DNA from: Bacteroidales bacterium
GTDB lineage: Bacteria > Bacteroidota > Bacteroidia > Bacteroidales > P3
Length of the DNA: 39,360 bases
NCBI GenBank assembly: GCA_017439185.1
Contig: JAFRTM010000016.1
Span: 1 to 39,360, forward strand
Reading direction: 5' to 3'
Within the stretch, counting starts at the first letter, position 1. Every line of letters begins with the position of its first letter. Shown here piece after piece: positions 30,474-39,360 of this stretch. Under the pieces are notes generated by a model, which saw only the letters and a program-made list of their open reading frames with translations, did not search any database and had not been told where the DNA came from. The translations under genes were made by a program, and so were the position numbers.

Positions 30474-31667
30474 ATGAAAAAGACGAACCTCATACTCTCG
30501 CTCCTCGCCGCCTTGGCTCTTTCTCTATCTTCCTCTGCACAAGGCTATTGGGGCCTTGTCGGCACCGACGGTGAGTGGCTCATTGACCCCATCTACGACT
30601 TCGCCTCCGACTTCCACGAAGGCCTCGCCTCTGTCGTCCTCCACGAGAAATACGGCTTCGTCAACGAGCAGGGCGAACTCGTCATCCCCGCCACCTATAC
30701 CGGCTCGGGCTCCTTCTCCGACGGCCGCGCACGTGTCCTCGTCGGCAACTGGGAGAACCCCAAGCTCGGCTACATCGACCACTCGGGCAAACTCGTCATC
30801 CCCGCCATCTACGACGACGGCTGGGATTTCGAAAACGGCATGGCTCGTGTCTCCCTCGACTCCCTGTGGGGCCTCATCGACCGCGAAGGCAACGTCATCG
30901 TGGACATCAAATACGACGAGATGGGATTCTTCACCGAAGGCATGGCCCGTGTGCGTCTCGGTGACTGGGACAACGGCCGTTGGGGCTTCGTCAACGGCGA
31001 AGGCAATCTCGTCATTCCGGCTACCCTCGAACTCGCCGGCGACTTCAGCGAAGGCCTCGCCCCGGCCAAGAAGGACGGCCGCTGGGGCTTCATCGACCCC
31101 TCCGGCAAATGGGTCGTCTCGCCTCAATACTCCTACGCCGATGGTTTCCACGACGGCATCGCACGCGTCAATATCGGCGGCTCTGCCTATATGTTCTCCA
31201 CCGAGAACGGCAAATGGGGCTTCATCGACAAGACTGGCAAAATGATCATCGAGCCCATTTACGACATCGCCTTCGATTTCTCCGAAGGCCTCGCTGCCGC
31301 TTCTCTCAACGGCAAGTGGGGCTTCATCGACCCCTCCGGCAAATGGGTTATCTCTCCTAAGTGGGCCTTCGTCGGCGACTTCCACGAGGGTCTCGCCAGT
31401 GTCAACGTGGGCGGCTCTCCCGACGAGTACGGAACCGTCGAGGGCGGCCTCTGGGGCTTCATCGACAAAGGCGGCAAGCTGGTAATCCCCACCATCTACG
31501 AATGGACTGTCGATTTCTGCAACGGCGCAGCCAAGGTCAAGAAGGGCGAATACTGGGGCTTCATCACCCGCAAAGGCGAGTGGCTCGTCAAACCACTCTA
31601 CGAAGACCTTCAGGAACGTATGGACGCCTCCAACGGCAATGTCTGGGCCAAGGAACCGCTCTACTAA
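30474..31667 (+). CDS. secreted WG-repeat protein
   Basis: A 397-residue protein with a signal peptide (1-22, cleaved after SSAQ) followed by ten WG repeats of about 35-40 residues covering the rest. Each repeat follows the pattern WGFID..GK.VI.P.Y....F.EG.A.V. Examples are KWGFIDKTGKMIIEP and RWGFIDPSGKWVVSP. WG repeats are thought to form a beta-propeller-like or solenoid scaffold for binding; no enzyme activity is known. It has no sorting domain or lipobox, so it is likely periplasmic. Strong C-ending codon bias leaves a long open frame on the other strand, which I do not consider real. Confidence 0.9.
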   Translation: MKKTNLILSLLAALALSLSSSAQGYWGLVGTDGEWLIDPIYDFASDFHEGLASVVLHEKYGFVNEQGELVIPATYTGSGSFSDGRARVLVGNWENPKLGYIDHSGKLVIPAIYDDGWDFENGMARVSLDSLWGLIDREGNVIVDIKYDEMGFFTEGMARVRLGDWDNGRWGFVNGEGNLVIPATLELAGDFSEGLAPAKKDGRWGFIDPSGKWVVSPQYSYADGFHDGIARVNIGGSAYMFSTENGKWGFIDKTGKMIIEPIYDIAFDFSEGLAAASLNGKWGFIDPSGKWVISPKWAFVGDFHEGLASVNVGGSPDEYGTVEGGLWGFIDKGGKLVIPTIYEWTVDFCNGAAKVKKGEYWGFITRKGEWLVKPLYEDLQERMDASNGNVWAKEPLY

Positions 31668-31724: not shown

Positions 31725-31756
31725 TTTGGTTCTTACAAAAAAAGTGCGTAAATTTG
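31725..31756 (+). promoter_or_regulatory. promoter of the hydrogenase sensor module
   Basis: TTTG (31725-31728), a 20-base spacer and TAAATTTG (31749-31756) fit the Bacteroidota consensus. The first gene starts at 31834, giving a leader of about 70 bases. Confidence 0.7.
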
Positions 31757-31833: not shown

Positions 31834-32175
31834 ATGACACTGAAAGAAATCGCAGAAATGCTCAACGCCGAAGTCTGCGTCGGCGAAGAAAGGCTCTCCG
31901 AGGAGGTCTCCACGGCCTTCGCCAGCGACTTGATGAGCGATGTGCTGACTCTTAAGGACACCCCCATCCTGGTCACCGGCCTCTGCAACGTCCAGACCAT
32001 CAGAACCTGCGACATGGCAGGCCTCGACGTGGTCATCATTGTGCGCAACAAGAAACCCTCCGAGGAAATGCTCGAACTGGCCGAGGAAAACGATATGATG
32101 GTGATGGCCTCACCTTTCTCGCTCTTCAAAGCCTGTGGCATCCTCTATGCCGCCGGAATGAAACCGCTTTACTAA
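31834..32175 (+). CDS. DRTGG-domain protein (first)
   Basis: A 113-residue stand-alone DRTGG-type domain: MTLKEIAEMLNAEVCVG, then SDLMSDVLT (the motif that aligns with the second copy's SDLLSDVMG), then the alternating sheet/helix core ending in SLFKACGILYAAG. DRTGG domains occur next to CBS domains and in HPr kinase-like proteins and may bind a ligand. Here the gene opens a cluster found beside [FeFe]-hydrogenases. It ends 15 bases before the anti-sigma-type ATPase gene. The second DRTGG gene at 34025 is a divergent paralogue. Role in the sensor module is inferred. Confidence 0.8.
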   Translation: MTLKEIAEMLNAEVCVGEERLSEEVSTAFASDLMSDVLTLKDTPILVTGLCNVQTIRTCDMAGLDVVIIVRNKKPSEEMLELAEENDMMVMASPFSLFKACGILYAAGMKPLY

Positions 32176-32190
32176 GAAAGGAGACTCAAA

Positions 32191-32604
32191 ATGCATCAGG
32201 AATATACTGTAATTGAAGGCGACTTCGTCAACGCTGGCAAGGCTTCGAGCTCGGTCAAGAAGACTCTCAAGCAGCTTAACGTCTCGCCACAGATTGTTAA
32301 ACGGGTGGTGGTGGCTCTCTACGAGGCTGAGGTCAACGCCATAGCTCACGCCTACGGCGGAACGGTGAGCGTGGACATCGAGGCCGACAAGATCACTATG
32401 GTCGTGGCCGACAAGGGCCCCGGCATTCCCGACATCGCTCTCGCCATGCAGGAAGGCTACTCCACCGCTCGCCCGGAGGTCCGCGACATGGGCTTCGGCG
32501 CCGGCATGGGCCTCCCTAATATGCAAAAGAACGTGGACAAGCTGAACGTCACCTCGGAAGTGGGCGTCGGCACCACCGTGGAAATGGAAGTGAATTTCGC
32601 TTAA
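32191..32604 (+). CDS. anti-sigma-type GHKL ATPase (RsbW/RsbT-like)
   Basis: A 137-residue serine/threonine kinase-like ATPase of the anti-sigma regulatory group. It shows an N box (EAEVNAIAHAYGG, about 45-57), a G1 box (DKGPGIPD, 74-81) and a G2 box (GFGAGMGLPNM, 101-111) ahead of GVGTTVEMEV. All nucleotide-binding motifs are intact. It has no sensor domain, so it probably receives its signal from a partner, here most likely the HydS-like protein encoded 19 bases downstream. It could phosphorylate an antagonist protein or act on a sigma factor; the target is not encoded nearby. Confidence 0.85.
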   Translation: MHQEYTVIEGDFVNAGKASSSVKKTLKQLNVSPQIVKRVVVALYEAEVNAIAHAYGGTVSVDIEADKITMVVADKGPGIPDIALAMQEGYSTARPEVRDMGFGAGMGLPNMQKNVDKLNVTSEVGVGTTVEMEVNFA

Positions 32605-32623
32605 CTTTAAGGAAACGGACATT

Positions 32624-34000
32624 ATGGCAAACGAAGATGATTTCTACCATTCGCTGGAAATTGACCATGACCTCTGCATCGGCTGCTCCCACTGCATGAA
32701 GATTTGCCCCACCGAGGCTATCCGCATCAGGGACGGGAAGGCTTGGATTCAGGGCGGCCGCTGCATCGACTGTGGCATTTGCTACAAGGACTGCCCCTCG
32801 AAGGCTATATATATCAAGCAGGACGACTTCGACGAGATTCAGAAGTACCCCCACAGCGTGGCGCTGGTCCCCGCGGTCTTTCTGGGTCAGTTCCCCGACG
32901 AGATCAGGGTCAGCCGCATATATGCCGCCCTCAAGGATCTGGGCTTTCGCCACGTCTTCGAGGTGGAAAGTTCGGCGCTCATATACGCCGAGGCCAAGAA
33001 CCGTTACGCCCGCGAGAATACCGACAAGGAACCGCTGATTTCGAGTTTCTGCCCGGCTATCGTTCGCCTCATCCAGGTGAAATATCCGGCTCTGGCTGAC
33101 AATATCATCCCGCTGAAGGCTCCTCTGGACATCAGCGCTATCTATGCTCTCAAAACTCTCACCGACCAGAAGATACCTCGTAAGGAAATCGGCATTTTCT
33201 ACGTGACTCCTTGCGCTGCCAAGATCGCGGCGGTAAAGCAGCCGGTAGGGGAGCGCAAATCTATAATCGACGGCGTCATCAATATGGACTCGCTCTATAA
33301 CCGCGTCTTCAAAAAGATCAAGGAGCAGGGCAAGGACTACGTTTTCCCTCCGCTCAAGACTCCGCGCCTCACGGCCGACGCCATACTCTCCACCCTCACC
33401 AACGGTGAACGCCGTATCTGTATGGCTAAGCGTAGCTACGCCATCGACGGAATCGAGAACGTCATGGACTTCCTGGAAAAACTGGAAAACGACGAGATCG
33501 AGGGAGTGGAATTCCTCGAGCTCAGAGCTTGTGACCAGTCGTGCGCCGGAGCTACTCTCTCTTGCGAGAACCGCTTCCTCTGTAGCGAGCGTATGTATGG
33601 CCGTGCCCGCAAGGCCGCCGAACGCGAACGAAATGGCGAGGTGCCGCGCAGCCAGGAGATGGAAAGCCAGAAGGAGTATCTCATAGAGTGCAGCGGCGTC
33701 GAGGCGGTGCAGCCTCGCTCTATGATGGTCCTCGACAAGGACATCGCCAAGGCTCTGGAGAAGATGGAGAAGATCAGGCGCGTGAAAGCCAACCTGCCGC
33801 ATATCGACTGCGGTCTCTGCGGCGCTCCCACTTGCGACGCTCTCGCCACTGACTACGTGATGGGCACCGCCGAACTGGAAAACTGTGTCTTCTACCAGCG
33901 CCACTTGGAGGAACAAGGGAAAATGCTGCCGGAGGAAAGCCTGGGCAAAATGCAGCAGATATGGGGCGAAGACAGAATTTCGGAAAAGATAAAGGAATAG
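32624..34000 (+). CDS. HydS-like sensory [FeFe]-hydrogenase homologue
   Basis: A 458-residue iron-sulfur protein. Two N-terminal [4Fe-4S] motifs (CIGCSHCMKICP, 18-29; CIDCGICYKDCP, 47-58) precede a hydrogenase large-subunit core. The H-cluster loops are altered: L1 is SSFCPA (Cys143 kept, the neighbouring proton-transfer Cys replaced by Phe, and no Trp), L2 is TPCAAK (Cys197), and L3 is RACDQSC (Cys303, Cys307). A C-terminal Fe-S motif follows (DCGLCGAPTC plus Cys421). All four cluster-ligating Cys are kept, so an H-cluster could bind, but L1 resembles sensory rather than catalytic enzymes (compare TSCCPGW in hydA here). The PAS domain common in HydS proteins is absent. It probably senses H2 or redox state and signals through the adjacent ATPases. 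Confidence 0.82.
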   Translation: MANEDDFYHSLEIDHDLCIGCSHCMKICPTEAIRIRDGKAWIQGGRCIDCGICYKDCPSKAIYIKQDDFDEIQKYPHSVALVPAVFLGQFPDEIRVSRIYAALKDLGFRHVFEVESSALIYAEAKNRYARENTDKEPLISSFCPAIVRLIQVKYPALADNIIPLKAPLDISAIYALKTLTDQKIPRKEIGIFYVTPCAAKIAAVKQPVGERKSIIDGVINMDSLYNRVFKKIKEQGKDYVFPPLKTPRLTADAILSTLTNGERRICMAKRSYAIDGIENVMDFLEKLENDEIEGVEFLELRACDQSCAGATLSCENRFLCSERMYGRARKAAERERNGEVPRSQEMESQKEYLIECSGVEAVQPRSMMVLDKDIAKALEKMEKIRRVKANLPHIDCGLCGAPTCDALATDYVMGTAELENCVFYQRHLEEQGKMLPEESLGKMQQIWGEDRISEKIKE

Positions 34001-34024
34001 AAAGAAAATAAAAAATCATAAACA

Positions 34025-34357
34025 ATGAAAGTAAAAGAACTTGTAGAGAAACTGAACCTGAAAGTGCTGTCCGGCGAAAGTGGCCTGGACCGTGAGATCG
34101 AAGGATGCTATGTGAGCGACCTCCTGAGCGACGTGATGGGTAACGCCGAGATGGGCAATGTCTGGGTTACCTTGCAGACTCATAAGAACGTGATGGCTAT
34201 CGCCTCACTGAAGGAGCTGGCTTGTGTGATACTGGTCAAGAACCAGCAGGCTGCCGAAGACACTCTCGAGCAAAGCAACGAGGAGGGAATTCCGTTCCTC
34301 TCCACCACGATGCAGACCTTCGAGACCGCCGGTAAGATTTACGAACTGTTGAAATAA
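34025..34357 (+). CDS. DRTGG-domain protein (second)
   Basis: A 110-residue stand-alone DRTGG-type protein (KVKELVEKLNLKVLSG, then YVSDLLSDVMGNAEMG, then the ACVILVKN core). It is homologous to the gene at 31834 but diverged, and the two flank the ATPase and HydS-like genes. They may act as a pair that binds the same ligand or each other. It starts 24 bases after the HydS-like gene and ends 11 before the PHP gene. Confidence 0.8.
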   Translation: MKVKELVEKLNLKVLSGESGLDREIEGCYVSDLLSDVMGNAEMGNVWVTLQTHKNVMAIASLKELACVILVKNQQAAEDTLEQSNEEGIPFLSTTMQTFETAGKIYELLK

Positions 34358-34368
34358 CACTCCATAAC

Positions 34369-35139
34369 GTGGAAAGCGGACTCCACCCATATAAGGCCGA
34401 CCTCCATATCCACACGGTACTTTCTCCCTGTGGCGACTTGGAGATGAGCCCTATCAATATTGTGAACCGGGCCCTGGAACGGGGCTTGGACATGATCGCT
34501 GTCACCGACCACAACACCACACGTCAGGTAAAGGTGACGCAAAAAATCGGGCGCGACAAGGGCCTCTTTGTGCTCGGCGGGGTGGAGGTGACTTCCCAGG
34601 AAGAGGCTCACTGTCTCGCCTATTTCCCCGACGACGAGAAACTAGACCGCTTCCAGCTCTTCCTCGACGAGCACCTGCCGAAGATACCTAACGACGAAGA
34701 CCGCTTCGGCTATCAGCTGATCGTTGACGAAAACGAGGAGATCGTCGGCGAGGAGGAATATCATCTGCTGAACGCCATCGATGTTGATATCGACGGCATA
34801 TATGAGGAGGTCCACCGTATCGGCGGCCTCTTCATACCGGCTCACGTCAACAAGGGGACCACGTCGCTGATGAGCCAGCTGGGCTTTGTGCCGCCGGACC
34901 TGAAGGCCGATGGCATCGAGATTAACCGCTTCACCACGAAAGAGGAATTCCTCAAGAAATTCGCCTACCTCAAGCGCTTCTCATTCATCACAGACAGCGA
35001 CGCCCACTTTGTGGACAATATCGCCGACGTGTACAACGTCATATATATGAAACACCGGACTTATGACGAGTTCCGCCTGGCGCTGCTCGGCGAAGAGGGC
35101 AGGTGGATTGACACAATGGCATTCAGAACGAAACAGTAA
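34369..35139 (+). CDS. PHP-domain phosphoesterase
   Basis: A 256-residue protein of the PHP superfamily of metal-dependent phosphoesterases. It shows DLHIHTVLSPCGDLEM (11-26) with the first His pair, AVTDHN (about 44-49), IPAHVNKG and TDSDAHF near the C-terminus, which supply the remaining metal ligands. It starts with GTG: no ATG in frame lies before the essential HIH motif. The substrate is unknown. In hydrogenase clusters such proteins travel with the DRTGG and ATPase genes, which suggests a role in signalling, perhaps cleaving a phosphorylated effector. Confidence 0.82.
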   Translation: MESGLHPYKADLHIHTVLSPCGDLEMSPINIVNRALERGLDMIAVTDHNTTRQVKVTQKIGRDKGLFVLGGVEVTSQEEAHCLAYFPDDEKLDRFQLFLDEHLPKIPNDEDRFGYQLIVDENEEIVGEEEYHLLNAIDVDIDGIYEEVHRIGGLFIPAHVNKGTTSLMSQLGFVPPDLKADGIEINRFTTKEEFLKKFAYLKRFSFITDSDAHFVDNIADVYNVIYMKHRTYDEFRLALLGEEGRWIDTMAFRTKQ

Positions 35140-35145
35140 CAGAAT

Positions 35146-35694
35146 ATGAAAGAACTATCGTTGCACGTTTACGACCTGATGGAGAACTCGACGGCTGCCG
35201 AGTCCTCGCTCATCAAGCTTACCATTACCGACTCGATAGTGAACAACAAGTTCCACTTCAAAATCGAAGACAACGGGAAGGGTATGACCCCCGAGTTTAT
35301 GGCCAGGGTGACTGACCCCTACACCACCACTCGTACCACCCGCAAAGTGGGCCTTGGGCTCCCGCTGATTAAGATGAATACCGAAAACTGCAACGGGGGA
35401 ATGTCTCTCGAGAGCGAGGTGGGGAAAGGCACGACTCTGCAGTTCTGGTTTCAGCACAACCACTGGGATCGTCCTCCGATGGGCGACTTGGCCGGCACGA
35501 TAGTTATGCTGGTCTCGCAGCACGAGGACATCCACTTTGTCATAAAATATGTCACCGACCAGGACGAGTTCGTCTTTGACACCGACGAGGTCAAGGAGGC
35601 TCTCGGCGGAATGTCAATGAACGACCTCTCGATAATACGGTACCTGAAAGAGATGATCGCCGAAAACCTGAAAGCTATTGGAGCCAACGAGTAG
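35146..35694 (+). CDS. GHKL ATPase (histidine-kinase-like, no sensor)
   Basis: A 182-residue protein with a GHKL ATPase domain: N box DLMENSTAAESS (10-21), G1 DNGKGMTP (42-49), and G2 GLGLPL (69-74) followed by GKGTTLQFWF. A C-terminal extension (about 110-182; GDLAGTIVMLVSQHEDIHFVIKYV) has no recognised family. It lacks a phospho-accepting His domain and a sensor domain, so it depends on partners. It lies six bases after the PHP gene and ends the sensor module. Confidence 0.82.
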   Translation: MKELSLHVYDLMENSTAAESSLIKLTITDSIVNNKFHFKIEDNGKGMTPEFMARVTDPYTTTRTTRKVGLGLPLIKMNTENCNGGMSLESEVGKGTTLQFWFQHNHWDRPPMGDLAGTIVMLVSQHEDIHFVIKYVTDQDEFVFDTDEVKEALGGMSMNDLSIIRYLKEMIAENLKAIGANE

Positions 35695-35781
35695 CAGGAG
35701 ATGCCGAAAGTGCTAATTGTTTATCAGTCAGTATAGTGTGTGTGAAGAAGTGCGCTATTAAAAAATATTTTTATAAAAAAG

Positions 35782-35838
35782 TTTGCAGATAAATAAAAAA
35801 AGAGTATATTTGCAAAGTCGGACATTCTGTCGGAATGT
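35782..35838 (+). promoter_or_regulatory. promoter and candidate operator of the catalytic hydrogenase genes
   Basis: TTTG (35782-35785), exactly 19 bases, TATATTTG (35805-35812): a perfect Bacteroidota promoter. Just downstream, near the expected start site, ACATTC (35822-35827) and GAATGT (35833-35838) form an inverted repeat around TGTCG, and GTCGGA occurs twice there. A regulator could control start or early elongation here. Confidence 0.75.
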
Positions 35839-35903
35839 ACGTAAATTATTAATAGTAAGTTAAATATAAATATTAATCCACAAAACGTAAAGGAGATTAC
35901 ACA

Positions 35904-36299
35904 ATGACAAAAGTAAAATCATTGGCAGACCTCAAAGCCATGAGAGAAAAACTCCAGACTAACCTTGACGTGCGCGAGAAGGCTGAAAATCCAGAGTCCT
36001 TGGTGCAGATTAAGGTGGCTATGGCTACGTGCGGTATCGCCGCCGGCGCCAAACAGGTAATGGAGCACATGATGCAGAAAGCCGAGGAACTCGGTATTCA
36101 GGCAGTGTTCACACAGACAGGTTGCATGGGATATTGCCACGCAGAACCCACCCTGGAAGTGCGCGTACCCGGTAAAGAACCCCTCGTGTTCGGCCACGTC
36201 GACAACGACCGTGCTGACGAAATCCTCACCAAGTATGTCCAGAACGGTGAGCTCGTAGAGGGCATCATCCCCGTGAACTACGAAACAATTGATAAATAA
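35904..36299 (+). CDS. [2Fe-2S] ferredoxin-like hydrogenase subunit
   Basis: A 131-residue protein with a helical N-terminus (about 1-37) and a thioredoxin-like ferredoxin domain. Cys residues are seen in ATCGIAAGAKQV and TGCMGYC, so three of the four classic ligands are evident and the first pair is reduced to one. This matches the small ferredoxin-like protein (HydD type) encoded beside hydB in related hydrogenase loci, not the longer NuoE-like HydC. It should pass electrons within or near the HydAB complex. AAAGGAG lies upstream at a usable distance. Confidence 0.8.
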   Translation: MTKVKSLADLKAMREKLQTNLDVREKAENPESLVQIKVAMATCGIAAGAKQVMEHMMQKAEELGIQAVFTQTGCMGYCHAEPTLEVRVPGKEPLVFGHVDNDRADEILTKYVQNGELVEGIIPVNYETIDK

Positions 36300-36401
36300 T
36301 TTTTTTAAGCTATGAGCTGTAAGTTGTGAGTTTTAAGTCATCTTCGCGACTTGTGAAAACTACTTGAAATTCAAAACCCAAAGCTTAAAACTAGAAAAGA
36401 T
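36300..36401. repeat. heptad-repeat inverted element between hydrogenase genes
   Basis: The left arm runs in 7-base steps (TATGAGC, TGTAAGT, TGTGAGT, TTTAAGT). The right arm also runs in 7-base steps (TCAAAAC, CCAAAGC, TTAAAAC) and is roughly the reverse complement. TTTTAAGCT and AGCTTAAAA pair at the outer ends, and AGTTTT-AAGTC and GACTT-AAAACT pair inside. It would fold into a long hairpin in the mRNA between the ferredoxin-like and hydB genes. Confidence 0.7.
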
Positions 36402-38216
36402 ATGGCAAAATACAAAATGCACATACTGATCTGCGGCGGCACGGGTTGCAAATCCTCCAACAGCCTCGAGATCATTGACACCTTCAAAAGCGTTCTCGCT
36501 GAGAAGAACCTCGCTGAAGAAGTACAGGTTATCAAGACCGGTTGCTTTGGCTTCTGCGAGAAAGGACCCATCGTGAAGATTATGCCCGACAACACCTTCT
36601 ACACACAGGTGAAGCCGGAAAACGTGACTCGTATCGTTGAGGAGCACATCATCAAAGGACGTAAGGTTCCTGAGCTACTCTACACCAACCCTGAGAACAA
36701 GGAGCACGTCAGCGATTCCAAACACATGGACTTCTACCGCAAACAAATACGTATCGCTCTGCGTAACTGCGGATTCGTAGATCCTGAGAACATCGACGAG
36801 AGCATAGCCCGCGGTGGTTATGAGGCTCTCGCAAAGTGCTTGACGGAGATGACTCCCGAGCAGGTTGTCGACGTGATAACCAAGTCGGGTCTCCGCGGCC
36901 GTGGCGGTGCTGGTTTCCCCACCGGCGTGAAGTGGGGCCTCTGCGCCAAGAACAAGGCCGAACAGAAATATATCATCTGCAATGCCGACGAGGGTGACCC
37001 CGGCGCATTCATGGACCGTTCCGTACTGGAAGGCGACCCCAACTGTATCGTTGAGGCTATGGCCATCGGCGGTTACGCTATCGGTGCCACCAAGGGTCTT
37101 ATCTATATCCGTGCAGAGTATCCTCTCGCTATCGACCGTCTGAAGATAGCTATCCGTCAGGCCCGCGAGTACGGCCTCCTCGGTGAGAACATCCTCGGCA
37201 GCGGTTTCAACTTCGACATCGAGCTCCGCTACGGTGCCGGAGCTTTCGTCTGCGGTGAGGAGACTGCTCTGATCCACTCCATGGAAGGTATGCGTGGCGA
37301 GCCTACCCTGAAACCTCCGTTCCCGGCTGTGAAGGGTTACATGGGCATGCCTTCGAACGTGAACAACGTCGAGACCTTCGCCAACATTCCTATCATCATC
37401 ACCAAGGGTGCCGACTGGTTCCGCACCATCGGTACTGAGAAATCTCCCGGAACCAAGGTATTCGCTCTGGCTGGCCAGATCAACAACGTGGGTCTTATCG
37501 AGGTTCCTATGGGCATCACCCTGCGTGAGATCATCTACGAGATCGGCGGCGGTATCAAGGACGGCAAACAGTTCAAGGCCGTTCAGACCGGTGGTCCTTC
37601 GGGCGGATGCTTGACTGCCAAGCACCTCGACACCGAGATCGACTACGACAGCCTCGTGGCTGCTGGCTCTATGATGGGCTCCGGCGGTATGGTTGTTATG
37701 GACGAGACCTCCTGTATGCCGGCTATCGCCAAGTTCTACCTCGAGTTCACCTGCGAGGAGAGCTGCGGTAAGTGCACCCCCTGCCGTGTTGGTAACAAGC
37801 GCCTCTGCGAGCTGCTTGAAAAGATCACCGACGGCCGTGGTACCATGGAAGACCTCCAGGCTCTGCGTAACCTCGCTGCCGTTATCAAGGACAGCGCTCT
37901 ATGCGGCCTCGGTCAGACTTCGCCGAACCCGGTTCTCTCTACTCTCGACAACTTCTGGGACGAGTATGTTGAGCACGTTGTTGACAAGAAATGTCGTGCT
38001 GGCGTCTGCAAGAAACTCATGCAGTATGTCATCGACCGCGAGAAGTGCATCGGCTGCGGCAAGTGCGCCAAGGGATGCCCGGTCGAGGCTATCAGCAAAA
38101 CGGACTACACTGCACCTGGTCACAAACTGCCTTCGATGGAAATCGACGCTACGAAGTGCATCAAGTGCGGCGCTTGCATCAACAACTGCAAATTCGGTGC
38201 AATTTCTGTTAAATAA
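36402..38216 (+). CDS. hydB: electron-bifurcating hydrogenase, NADH-binding subunit
   Basis: A 604-residue flavoprotein. The N-terminal [2Fe-2S] thioredoxin-like domain (Cys11, 16, 48, 52) is followed by the NuoF-like FMN/NADH domain (GRGGAGFPTGVKW, about 166-178; ICNADEGDPGAFMDR; FVCGEETALIHSMEG) and the NuoF C-terminal [4Fe-4S] site (SCGKCTPCRVG, 454-464, plus Cys501). Two more [4Fe-4S] motifs end the protein (CIGCGKCAKGCP, 549-560; CIKCGACINNC, 586-596). This domain order and length are those of HydB in HydABC complexes, where the flavin splits electrons between NAD and ferredoxin. It is cytosolic. hydA follows after 35 bases. Confidence 0.93.
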   Translation: MAKYKMHILICGGTGCKSSNSLEIIDTFKSVLAEKNLAEEVQVIKTGCFGFCEKGPIVKIMPDNTFYTQVKPENVTRIVEEHIIKGRKVPELLYTNPENKEHVSDSKHMDFYRKQIRIALRNCGFVDPENIDESIARGGYEALAKCLTEMTPEQVVDVITKSGLRGRGGAGFPTGVKWGLCAKNKAEQKYIICNADEGDPGAFMDRSVLEGDPNCIVEAMAIGGYAIGATKGLIYIRAEYPLAIDRLKIAIRQAREYGLLGENILGSGFNFDIELRYGAGAFVCGEETALIHSMEGMRGEPTLKPPFPAVKGYMGMPSNVNNVETFANIPIIITKGADWFRTIGTEKSPGTKVFALAGQINNVGLIEVPMGITLREIIYEIGGGIKDGKQFKAVQTGGPSGGCLTAKHLDTEIDYDSLVAAGSMMGSGGMVVMDETSCMPAIAKFYLEFTCEESCGKCTPCRVGNKRLCELLEKITDGRGTMEDLQALRNLAAVIKDSALCGLGQTSPNPVLSTLDNFWDEYVEHVVDKKCRAGVCKKLMQYVIDREKCIGCGKCAKGCPVEAISKTDYTAPGHKLPSMEIDATKCIKCGACINNCKFGAISVK

Positions 38217-38251
38217 TCTATTTGAATACAGAATTTAAAAGAAAACAAACA

Positions 38252-39360
38252 ATGATTAACGTAACAATAGATCATAAAGCGATTCAGGTCCCCGAAGGCA
38301 CCACTATTCTGAAAGCTGCCCGCATGGCCGGTATCGATATCCCGACGCTCTGCTATTTCGAGCTCGACGGAATGAAATTTGAAAACAAACCTGGCGGATG
38401 CCGCGTCTGCATGGTTGAGGTAGTAAAAGACTTCAACGGCAAGCCGCGCCGCAACCTCGCCCCCGCTTGCGCTACCGACTGCGTCGAGGGCATGGAGGTC
38501 CTCACCGCCTCTCCGCGTGCTTTGAACGCTCGCAAAACCGTCGTTGAGCTTATCCTCAGCGACCACCCGAACGACTGCCTCCAGTGCGAGAAGAGCGGCG
38601 ACTGCGAACTCCAGTCTCTCGCTGCTCGCATGGGCATCCGCGAAATTCCTTTCAAAGGCGCTCAATCCACCTACAAGAAAGACAGCACTCTCAGCGTCTA
38701 TCGCGACATGGACAAGTGCGTTTACTGCCGTCGTTGCGAAGAGATGTGCAACAAGTTCCAGAGCGTTGGCGCCCTCAGCGGCGTGAACCGTGGCTTCCCC
38801 TCAGTCGTTTCTCCCGCTTTCGAGCAGAAACTGGGCGACAGCTCCTGCGTCAACTGCGGCCAGTGCGTACAGGTCTGCCCCGTGGGTGCTCTCACTCTCG
38901 TTGACAACATCAAGGACGTCCTCAAGGCTATCGCCGACCCGACCAAGAAAGTCGTCGTCCAGACCGCTCCCGCCGTCCGCGTCGCTCTCGGTGAAGAGTT
39001 TGGCATGGAACCTGGCTCGATCGTAACTGGCAAGATGGCTGCAGGCCTCCGTCGTCTCGGTTTCGACTATGTCTTCGACACCGACTGGAGCGCCGACCTC
39101 ACCATCATGGAAGAGGGCACCGAGCTCCTCAACCGTGTGAAGGCCTTCCTCGCTGGCGACAAGAACGTCAAGTTGCCTCAGTTCACCAGCTGCTGCCCCG
39201 GTTGGGTTACCTTCTACGAGAAGAACTTCCCCGACCTGCTTGAATATCCTTCGACAGCCAAGTCGCCTCAGCAGATGTTCGGCGCTGTCACCAAGAACTA
39301 CTTCGCCAACAAGATTGGTGTGAAACGCGAAGACATCGTCTGCGTCTCCATCATGCCGTG
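38252..39360 (+). CDS. hydA: [FeFe]-hydrogenase catalytic subunit (5' part)
   Basis: The first 369 residues are present; the gene runs off the right edge. The enzyme makes or consumes H2 at the H-cluster. In order: a plant-type [2Fe-2S] domain (Cys34, Cys50, Cys53, Cys73), the His-Cys3 [4Fe-4S] site (His105, Cys109, Cys112, Cys118), two [4Fe-4S] motifs (CVYCRRCEEMC, 156-166; CVNCGQCVQVCP, 199-210), then the hydrogenase core with the intact L1 loop TSCCPGW (312-318). The sequence stops within L2 at SIMP, one residue before its Cys. This modular form with hydB next to it fits the trimeric, electron-bifurcating type (group A3). It should need HydE, HydF and HydG maturases, which are not in the window. 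Confidence 0.93.
   Translation, partial: MINVTIDHKAIQVPEGTTILKAARMAGIDIPTLCYFELDGMKFENKPGGCRVCMVEVVKDFNGKPRRNLAPACATDCVEGMEVLTASPRALNARKTVVELILSDHPNDCLQCEKSGDCELQSLAARMGIREIPFKGAQSTYKKDSTLSVYRDMDKCVYCRRCEEMCNKFQSVGALSGVNRGFPSVVSPAFEQKLGDSSCVNCGQCVQVCPVGALTLVDNIKDVLKAIADPTKKVVVQTAPAVRVALGEEFGMEPGSIVTGKMAAGLRRLGFDYVFDTDWSADLTIMEEGTELLNRVKAFLAGDKNVKLPQFTSCCPGWVTFYEKNFPDLLEYPSTAKSPQQMFGAVTKNYFANKIGVKREDIVCVSIMP

Follow-up and report, generated by a model that had tools for sequence, protein, structure and literature searches.

The window analysed here, a contig of 39,360 bases (JAFRTM010000016.1) from a Bacteroidales assembly of 28 contigs that is 92.28% complete, raises the question of what purpose is served by six closely spaced genes in front of a bifurcating [FeFe]-hydrogenase, one of which encodes HydS, a protein that is itself [FeFe]-hydrogenase-like. 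The output of H2, formate and reduced ferredoxin by anaerobes of the gut, the rumen and bioreactors is set by bifurcating enzymes, the control of which is little understood. A sequence-only reading had taken the six genes for an H2 sensor of the neighbouring hydrogenase. On the evidence below we tentatively regard them, at not quite even probability, as a conserved redox-gated regulatory module for NADH-linked bifurcating NuoE/Fdx/NuoF enzymes. The sensor idea for group D HydS beside bifurcating hydrogenases is already published; what appears to be new, as judged from gene content, is that the module follows bifurcating NuoEF enzymes across three catalytic chemistries, including lineages without a visible source of the H-cluster for HydS.

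The six-gene module

The module comprises six open reading frames on the + strand (31834-35694) with intergenic gaps of 15, 19, 24, 11 and 6 bases. These are predicted to encode D1, a stand-alone DRTGG-domain protein of 113 amino acids (31834-32175; Pfam PF07085, 26.5 bits, cut-off 25.2); AS, a SpoIIAB/RsbW-like ATPase of 137 amino acids and predicted Ser/Thr kinase (32191-32604; PF13581, HATPase_c_2); HydS, a group D (M2e) [FeFe]-hydrogenase-like Fe-S protein of 458 amino acids (32624-34000; PF02906, Fe_hyd_lg_C; PF04060, FeS; and ferredoxin domains); D2, a second stand-alone DRTGG/HprK-N-like protein of 110 amino acids (34025-34357; PF02603, Hpr_kinase_N, 33.7 bits; PF07085, 32.1 bits); a PHP-family metal-dependent phosphoesterase of 256 amino acids with a GTG start (34369-35139; PF02811); and a GHKL ATPase of 182 amino acids with about 75 extra C-terminal residues (35146-35694; PF02518, HATPase_c). 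The Pfam domain matches of all six are above the curated cut-offs, and the genes, coordinates and gaps of 6-24 bases given by the sequence-only reading were all borne out. Its placing of the module directly before the hydrogenase genes holds for the order; adjacency does not, as the Fdx gene starts 209 bases past the sixth gene.

The same reading had called the third product HydS-like, and the protein does carry the sequence features published for group D (M2e), for which criteria including Cx2Cx4Cx16C are set out in the excerpted text of PMC8163306. Relatives were compared in a Bacteroidales set of 81 loci (at least 80 listed from a scan of genome contigs, and the window), two of which were left out of the HydS alignment for length. 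The N-terminal two-cluster ferredoxin domain of the window HydS contains C18, C21, C24, C28, C47, C50, C53 and C57, and all eight are kept in 79/79 aligned Bacteroidales rows; the C-terminal Cx2Cx4Cx16C is found in 104/104 aligned HydS sequences. No PAS domain, the criterion for group C (M2f), was found in the 458 residues of the window HydS by Pfam scan. Group D does not keep C299 and has Ser or Thr for M353; mapped by motif, these positions are occupied in the window by F142 and by a hydroxyl residue, T195, respectively, and the four putative H-cluster cubane cysteines are C143, C197, C303 and C307, together with K200. All four cysteines occur in 102/104 aligned HydS sequences and K200 in 104/104; the two exceptions, both of family f59 from the molybdopterin-linked loci described below, have His in place of C303. 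As a separate observation, all 79 Bacteroidales rows and genome G337 have C21, the second Cys of the first ferredoxin cluster, and it is replaced in 22 of the 24 rows from another class of the phylum.

Long HydS reading frames were considered as natural fusions and set aside: the extension in L054 looks by eye like an ordinary downstream redoxin-type protein, and that in L033 is out of frame. Viral contigs searched for HydS yielded no relative.

The kinase-like and phosphoesterase genes proposed by the sequence-only reading likewise have intact motifs, in the window and across relatives. The nearest solved structure to AS is SpoIIAB (E 1.6e-9); its N-, G1- and G2-box residues are intact, and the N- and G-box residues are conserved in at least 95% of 87 length-filtered relatives. 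The PHP protein has nine positions (H13, H15, D47, H48, E73, H81, H159, D211 and H213) conserved in at least 95% of 51 length-filtered relatives, which we take to be the His/Asp/Glu ligands typical of the metal site. In the GHKL ATPase, D10, N14, D42, G44, G46, T61, G69 and G71 are invariant in 33 aligned sequences, and no histidine-acceptor domain was found by Pfam scan. DRTGG proteins serve kinases and phosphatases as partner modules or as modules for small ligands. No STAS-domain partner, PP2C phosphatase or sigma factor was detected by Pfam among the six genes, to which this search was confined.

Conservation of the module

In 77 of the 78 evaluable Bacteroidales loci, HydS comes after AS and a DRTGG gene, a linkage that argues against a chance grouping of D1, AS and HydS. 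D2, PHP and GHKL all follow just downstream of HydS in 31 of 74 loci; many of the loci without them belong to a rumen Bacteroidales clade with scattered module genes. PHP was present in 35 of 37 genomes searched, 30 of which are of the scattered kind, with D1-AS-HydS standing apart, and 28 of these 30 retain PHP; the flank of one locus (L037) is too short to tell whether its set is scattered. GHKL is retained in 25 of the 27 scattered-kind genomes searched, once only in part, and D2 adjoins PHP in all 26 displaced PHP loci fetched. Module genes are thus kept in the genome after losing their neighbours, which points to more than hitchhiking. The neighbours of displaced D2-PHP and GHKL genes reflect local synteny only, with no recurrent kinase, sigma factor or response regulator on inspection by eye. 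The sequence-only reading had named a lack of joint conservation in relatives as a result that would speak against it; the module was found to be conserved.

The whole set is also present in Parabacteroides distasonis; the 21 kb stretch around it contains no hydBA, and hydBAC forms an operon of its own about 60 kb off in the same record. As this species is a cultivated gut commensal, the idea is directly testable. In Subdoligranulum variabile (a Bacillota record), all six genes occur, with D1-AS-HydS-D2-PHP divergent from hydC, GHKL, hydB and hydA; Fdx was not detected at this locus. Two PLSDB records, NZ_OY725779.1 and NZ_CP154629.1, are labelled plasmids; one carries gyrA and one is 2.6 Mb in size, and they look chromosomal.

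Enzymes beside the module

Among 392 sampled genomes of the phylum, close group D relatives turned up in four more, one of them in the order of the window and three outside it. From the class to which these three belong, 391 genomes were sampled; 24 of them, the three included, were found to encode a close group D HydS (E 5e-97 or better). The N-terminal half of hdrA adjoins module genes in 22 of the 24 loci, mostly with hdrC and hdrB, followed by genes for NuoE, Fdx, NuoF and a NuoG-N/HdrA-like FAD protein. NuoF was found in 19 of the 22 hdr-linked loci and mvhD, mvhG and mvhA for a [NiFe]-hydrogenase in 18, the contig ending first in the others; hence, [NiFe]-hydrogenase genes are present in 18/18 loci whose contig reaches that far, and in one (L117) all three Mvh proteins were confirmed by Pfam. 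HdrA is split in these loci (L115-L117, L221-L237, L239 and L240), its N-terminal half forming one gene and its FAD part being joined to a NuoG-like [2Fe-2S] N-terminus after NuoF; the arrangement suggests that this Hdr-NuoEF-Mvh operon encodes an NADH-linked Hdr/[NiFe]-hydrogenase complex.

The remaining two loci (L238 and L241) encode D2, a D1-AS fusion, HydS, NuoE, an Fdx-NuoF fusion and a molybdopterin oxidoreductase with a NuoG-like N-terminus, the latter most like formate dehydrogenase; hydrogenase subunit profiles gave no match in either. The D1 homologue is fused to AS in one open reading frame in both loci (two genomes, one family), its DRTGG part scoring 23.2 and 21.2 bits with Pfam, just under the cut-off, and 82.9 and 84.7 bits with the D1 profile. 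Because of this fusion, D1 and AS are likely partners.

In a HydB/NuoF tree, which groups largely by lineage for HydB, the molybdopterin-linked NuoF proteins sit on long branches with module-unlinked HydB (100/97), away from those that are [NiFe]-linked; this position may mean that recruitment of the module happened more than once.

Bifurcation signatures

Residues that separate bifurcating from non-bifurcating beta subunits are given in PMC7311640, from the excerpted text of which Ala/Glu and Met at the 232/234 pair, Phe near FMN, and GGPSG were used, with positions assigned by motif. All three features are present in the window HydB/NuoF flavin subunit (36402-38216, + strand; PF01512, PF10589; PGAFM, GGPSG, GAGAFVCGE), in agreement with the bifurcating hydrogenase that had been proposed for this locus. 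Among NuoF/HydB proteins of at least 370 amino acids and at least 250 bits (four pieces shorter than 370 amino acids were left out), 63 of 65 from module loci show the full set, namely 41 from [FeFe] loci of Bacteroidales, 19 from [NiFe]-Hdr loci, two from molybdopterin loci and one from Bacillota. The two with a non-bifurcating pattern are second-type HydB proteins, in L059 and L063, the latter of which also encodes a bifurcating HydB. The only further non-bifurcating HydB is the module-unlinked L258 in genome G534.

H-cluster supply

Of the 24 genomes from the other class, 15 (completeness 84-100%, one at 67%) have HydS as their sole [FeFe]-hydrogenase-family protein, and none of the 24 encodes HydE, HydF or HydG over the curated cut-off; a HydE-like protein in G539 came to 245.9 bits (cut-off 254.6). 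The window genome and three Bacteroidales controls searched alongside have all three maturases. HydG was over the cut-off in 32 of 36 genomes of an earlier Bacteroidales set (39 less G172, G330 and G180), so single maturase misses do happen.

The other nine of the 24 genomes encode a strong HydA (E about 1e-84 or better), and three of these proteins that were read (L258, L259 and L260) have the usual motifs. A strong group A-type HydA without HydE, HydF or HydG over the cut-off was thus seen in G534, G540, G452 and six more genomes (families f42 and f59), and also in G337; one of these genomes is a single-contig assembly. A few species with a hydrogenase and without maturases are described in the excerpted text of PMC3226654. 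The absence of maturases as proof that no H-cluster is made was rejected, because the nine HydA genomes have no HydE, HydF or HydG over the cut-off either; with a canonical-looking HydA in such genomes, they may harbour either an as yet unknown route of H-cluster maturation or unmatured hydrogenases. The overall result for the module challenges an assumption in the excerpted text of PMC8163306, that all [FeFe]-hydrogenase groups arguably need the same H-cluster, given the well-conserved HydEFG.

Proposed function

In the mechanism that we propose, HydS would act as a redox sensor of the low-potential pool through its ferredoxin domain and H-site cubane, with reduced ferredoxin as the input, and H2 too where a full H-cluster can be made. 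The SpoIIAB-like kinase AS, with D1 as its DRTGG partner, would be opposed by the PHP phosphoesterase, the state of HydS deciding between them; D2 and the GHKL ATPase would serve as target or as a second switch, and the output would tune the activity or the amount of the bifurcating enzyme. We infer sensing, the contact between HydS and the kinase, phosphorylation, its target and the direction of control. A redox-gated phosphorylation switch appears the most economical reading of the SpoIIAB-like AS, the intact PHP, the D1-AS fusion, a group C-like HydS that adjoins a SpoIIE phosphatase gene in Ruminococcus albus and Monoglobus, and the HATPase domain of group C1 enzymes.

The sequence-only reading, in which the module senses H2 for this [FeFe]-hydrogenase, is not supported in that form, as the same genes lie beside Hdr-NuoEF-[NiFe] and molybdopterin enzymes in genomes without HydE, HydF or HydG over the cut-off. 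With partners so different, the role is probably the control of electron splitting rather than H2 sensing alone. A wider claim, in which the module governs flavin-based electron bifurcation in general and has an [FeFe]-hydrogenase-derived sensor that in some lineages would work with neither H2 nor the [2Fe] half of the H-cluster, would fit [FeFe], [NiFe]/Hdr and molybdopterin (formate) enzymes, and is considered doubtful. The candidate regulator is a defined set of six proteins that is not confined to a single catalytic chemistry.

The published group D proposal, a dedicated H2 sensor in which HydS carries a full H-cluster and controls the neighbouring hydrogenase via kinase-like partners, is rather unlikely. 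In its favour, TamHydS, the protein of Thermoanaerobacter mathranii, has catalytic activity, and under H2 its H-cluster and one N-terminal cluster become reduced and its secondary structure changes (excerpted text of PMC8163306 and PMC13104023); the near-constant cubane cysteines and K200 described above would suit such a cluster, as would the maturases of the window genome; and the [NiFe]-hydrogenase in every reachable hdr-linked locus means that an H2 enzyme is nearly always involved. Since an H2-metabolising enzyme adjoins the module in most contexts, H2 is still a live input, and H2 sensing is possible in the organism of the window, which encodes HydE, HydF and HydG. What counts against the dedicated sensor is the lack of HydE, HydF and HydG over the cut-off in each of the 24 genomes from the other class, with HydS as the sole [FeFe]-type protein in 15, and the molybdopterin-linked loci, where no hydrogenase subunit was matched and HydS has His for one cubane Cys. 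The active TamHydS, moreover, was reportedly matured artificially.

Improbable, in our estimate, is a module for assembly or repair, with the GHKL and HATPase proteins as chaperone-like ATPases and HydS as an Fe-S scaffold for NuoEF-type complexes. The constancy of the NuoE/Fdx/NuoF core as partner, the cysteine-rich HydS, the absence of a transcription factor among the six, and the keeping of unlinked module genes would all suit it; against it, AS is nearest to SpoIIAB, a protein kinase, some bifurcating HydB loci show no such module, and active bifurcating HydABC has reportedly been produced in the absence of these genes. An ancient operon neighbourhood without a functional link is very improbable: gene order can persist by descent, and the HydB tree is largely one of lineages, but the module is retained although scattered, recurs with three enzyme types, and at the molybdopterin-linked loci accompanies NuoF proteins that group, with the support given above, with module-unlinked HydB.

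Several observations weigh against the redox-gated module for bifurcating enzymes that we favour. No HydB was found in the fetched flanks, some of them short, of 37 of the 81 Bacteroidales loci, and L059, with the module beside a non-bifurcating HydB only, is a true exception to the pattern; the comparison set of non-bifurcating HydB proteins numbers three only. No such module was detected near the bifurcating-type HydB of L259 and L260 (in L260, a longer, group C-like HydS adjoins HydB), so the module is not needed by every bifurcating enzyme. At L223 and L228 (one genus), HydS and GHKL are kept and AS and PHP are absent from the locus, and at the molybdopterin-linked loci PHP and GHKL were not detected, so the full set of six is not always needed. 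Given the nine HydA genomes with no maturase over the cut-off, missing maturases do not prove that the H-cluster is missing, and no phosphorylation target or DNA-binding output is known for the module.

Comparison with known systems

No account of the six-gene set was found in the open-licence literature, where the single paper listed for DRTGG together with hydrogenase looks unrelated. The gene for TamHydS lies upstream of a trimeric bifurcating hydrogenase and by a gene for a kinase-like ATPase, and sensing was proposed (excerpted text of PMC8163306); the C-terminal cluster of TamHydS is described as unresponsive to H2 in the excerpted text of PMC13104023. The window HydS shares with TamHydS the domain order, Cx2Cx4Cx16C, the lack of a PAS domain, the replaced C299 and M353, the place upstream of a bifurcating [FeFe]-hydrogenase and a nearby kinase-like ATPase; unlike in that account, the whole six-gene set is defined here, and relatives lie beside Hdr-[NiFe] and molybdopterin enzymes without HydEFG over the cut-off.

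In several Clostridia and related bacteria, only a few genes separate M2e proteins from trimeric bifurcating hydrogenases, and nearby kinases were taken as a sign of regulation (excerpted text of PMC3561251), and phosphatases, kinases and PAS sensors are described upstream in Clostridium thermocellum (excerpted text of PMC3492117). The present locus resembles these clusters (e.g. Cthe_0335 with Cthe_0340-0342; PMC3561251) in that M2e is near a trimeric bifurcating hydrogenase, often with a His/Ser-kinase gene between; as for differences, only a kinase is named between them in the excerpted text of PMC3561251, which makes no mention of DRTGG and PHP proteins like those encoded here.

A HATPase domain is fused to group C1 enzymes (excerpted text of PMC11406978). 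Group C (M2f) HydS loci are similar in that an [FeFe]-like putative sensor is found with partner-switching-type signalling genes; they differ by PAS (as published) and PP2C, in place of which a stand-alone SpoIIAB-like kinase, the DRTGG pair, PHP and GHKL are encoded here. The HydS proteins of R. albus and Monoglobus are presumably of this group, by their length and score. With SpoIIAB/RsbW anti-sigma kinases, AS shares the fold family and the ATP-binding residues; unlike in those systems, there is no STAS anti-anti-sigma, sigma-factor or PP2C gene among the six.

Other features of the window

The Fdx gene (35904-36299, + strand) encodes a thioredoxin-like [2Fe-2S] ferredoxin-like subunit (PF01257, E 5.7e-4, 20.2 bits, below the cut-off of 24.8), a homologue of the Fdx part of the Fdx-NuoF fusion in L238 and L241. 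The hydA gene (38222-39360, + strand; NF040763; TSCCPGW) for a group A6-like [FeFe]-hydrogenase catalytic subunit is truncated by the contig end; it scored 517.6 bits over positions 1-354 of the 571 of NF040763, the whole-protein cut-off of 765 not being reached. A full-length NuoE (HydC) was not found in the assembly of the window. A NuoE-like gene of 158-159 amino acids lies directly after hydA in several relatives, and one is annotated after hydA in P. distasonis; hence, the missing NuoE probably sits just off the contig.

Promoter-like matches to a Bacteroidota-type -33/-7 pattern lie before D1 (31725-31756, + strand; at -109 from 31834) and before the Fdx gene (35782-35812, + strand; at -122 from 35904), and the module and the hydrogenase genes may therefore form two transcription units. 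With the window counted, the strict pattern was found in only 6 of 54 loci before D1 and 5 of 22 before Fdx. An inverted repeat of 6 bases after the promoter-like site before Fdx was considered as an operator and dropped, as it is absent from the 21 relatives checked. Just upstream of the module (30474-31667), the window encodes a WG beta-repeat protein with nine repeat matches.

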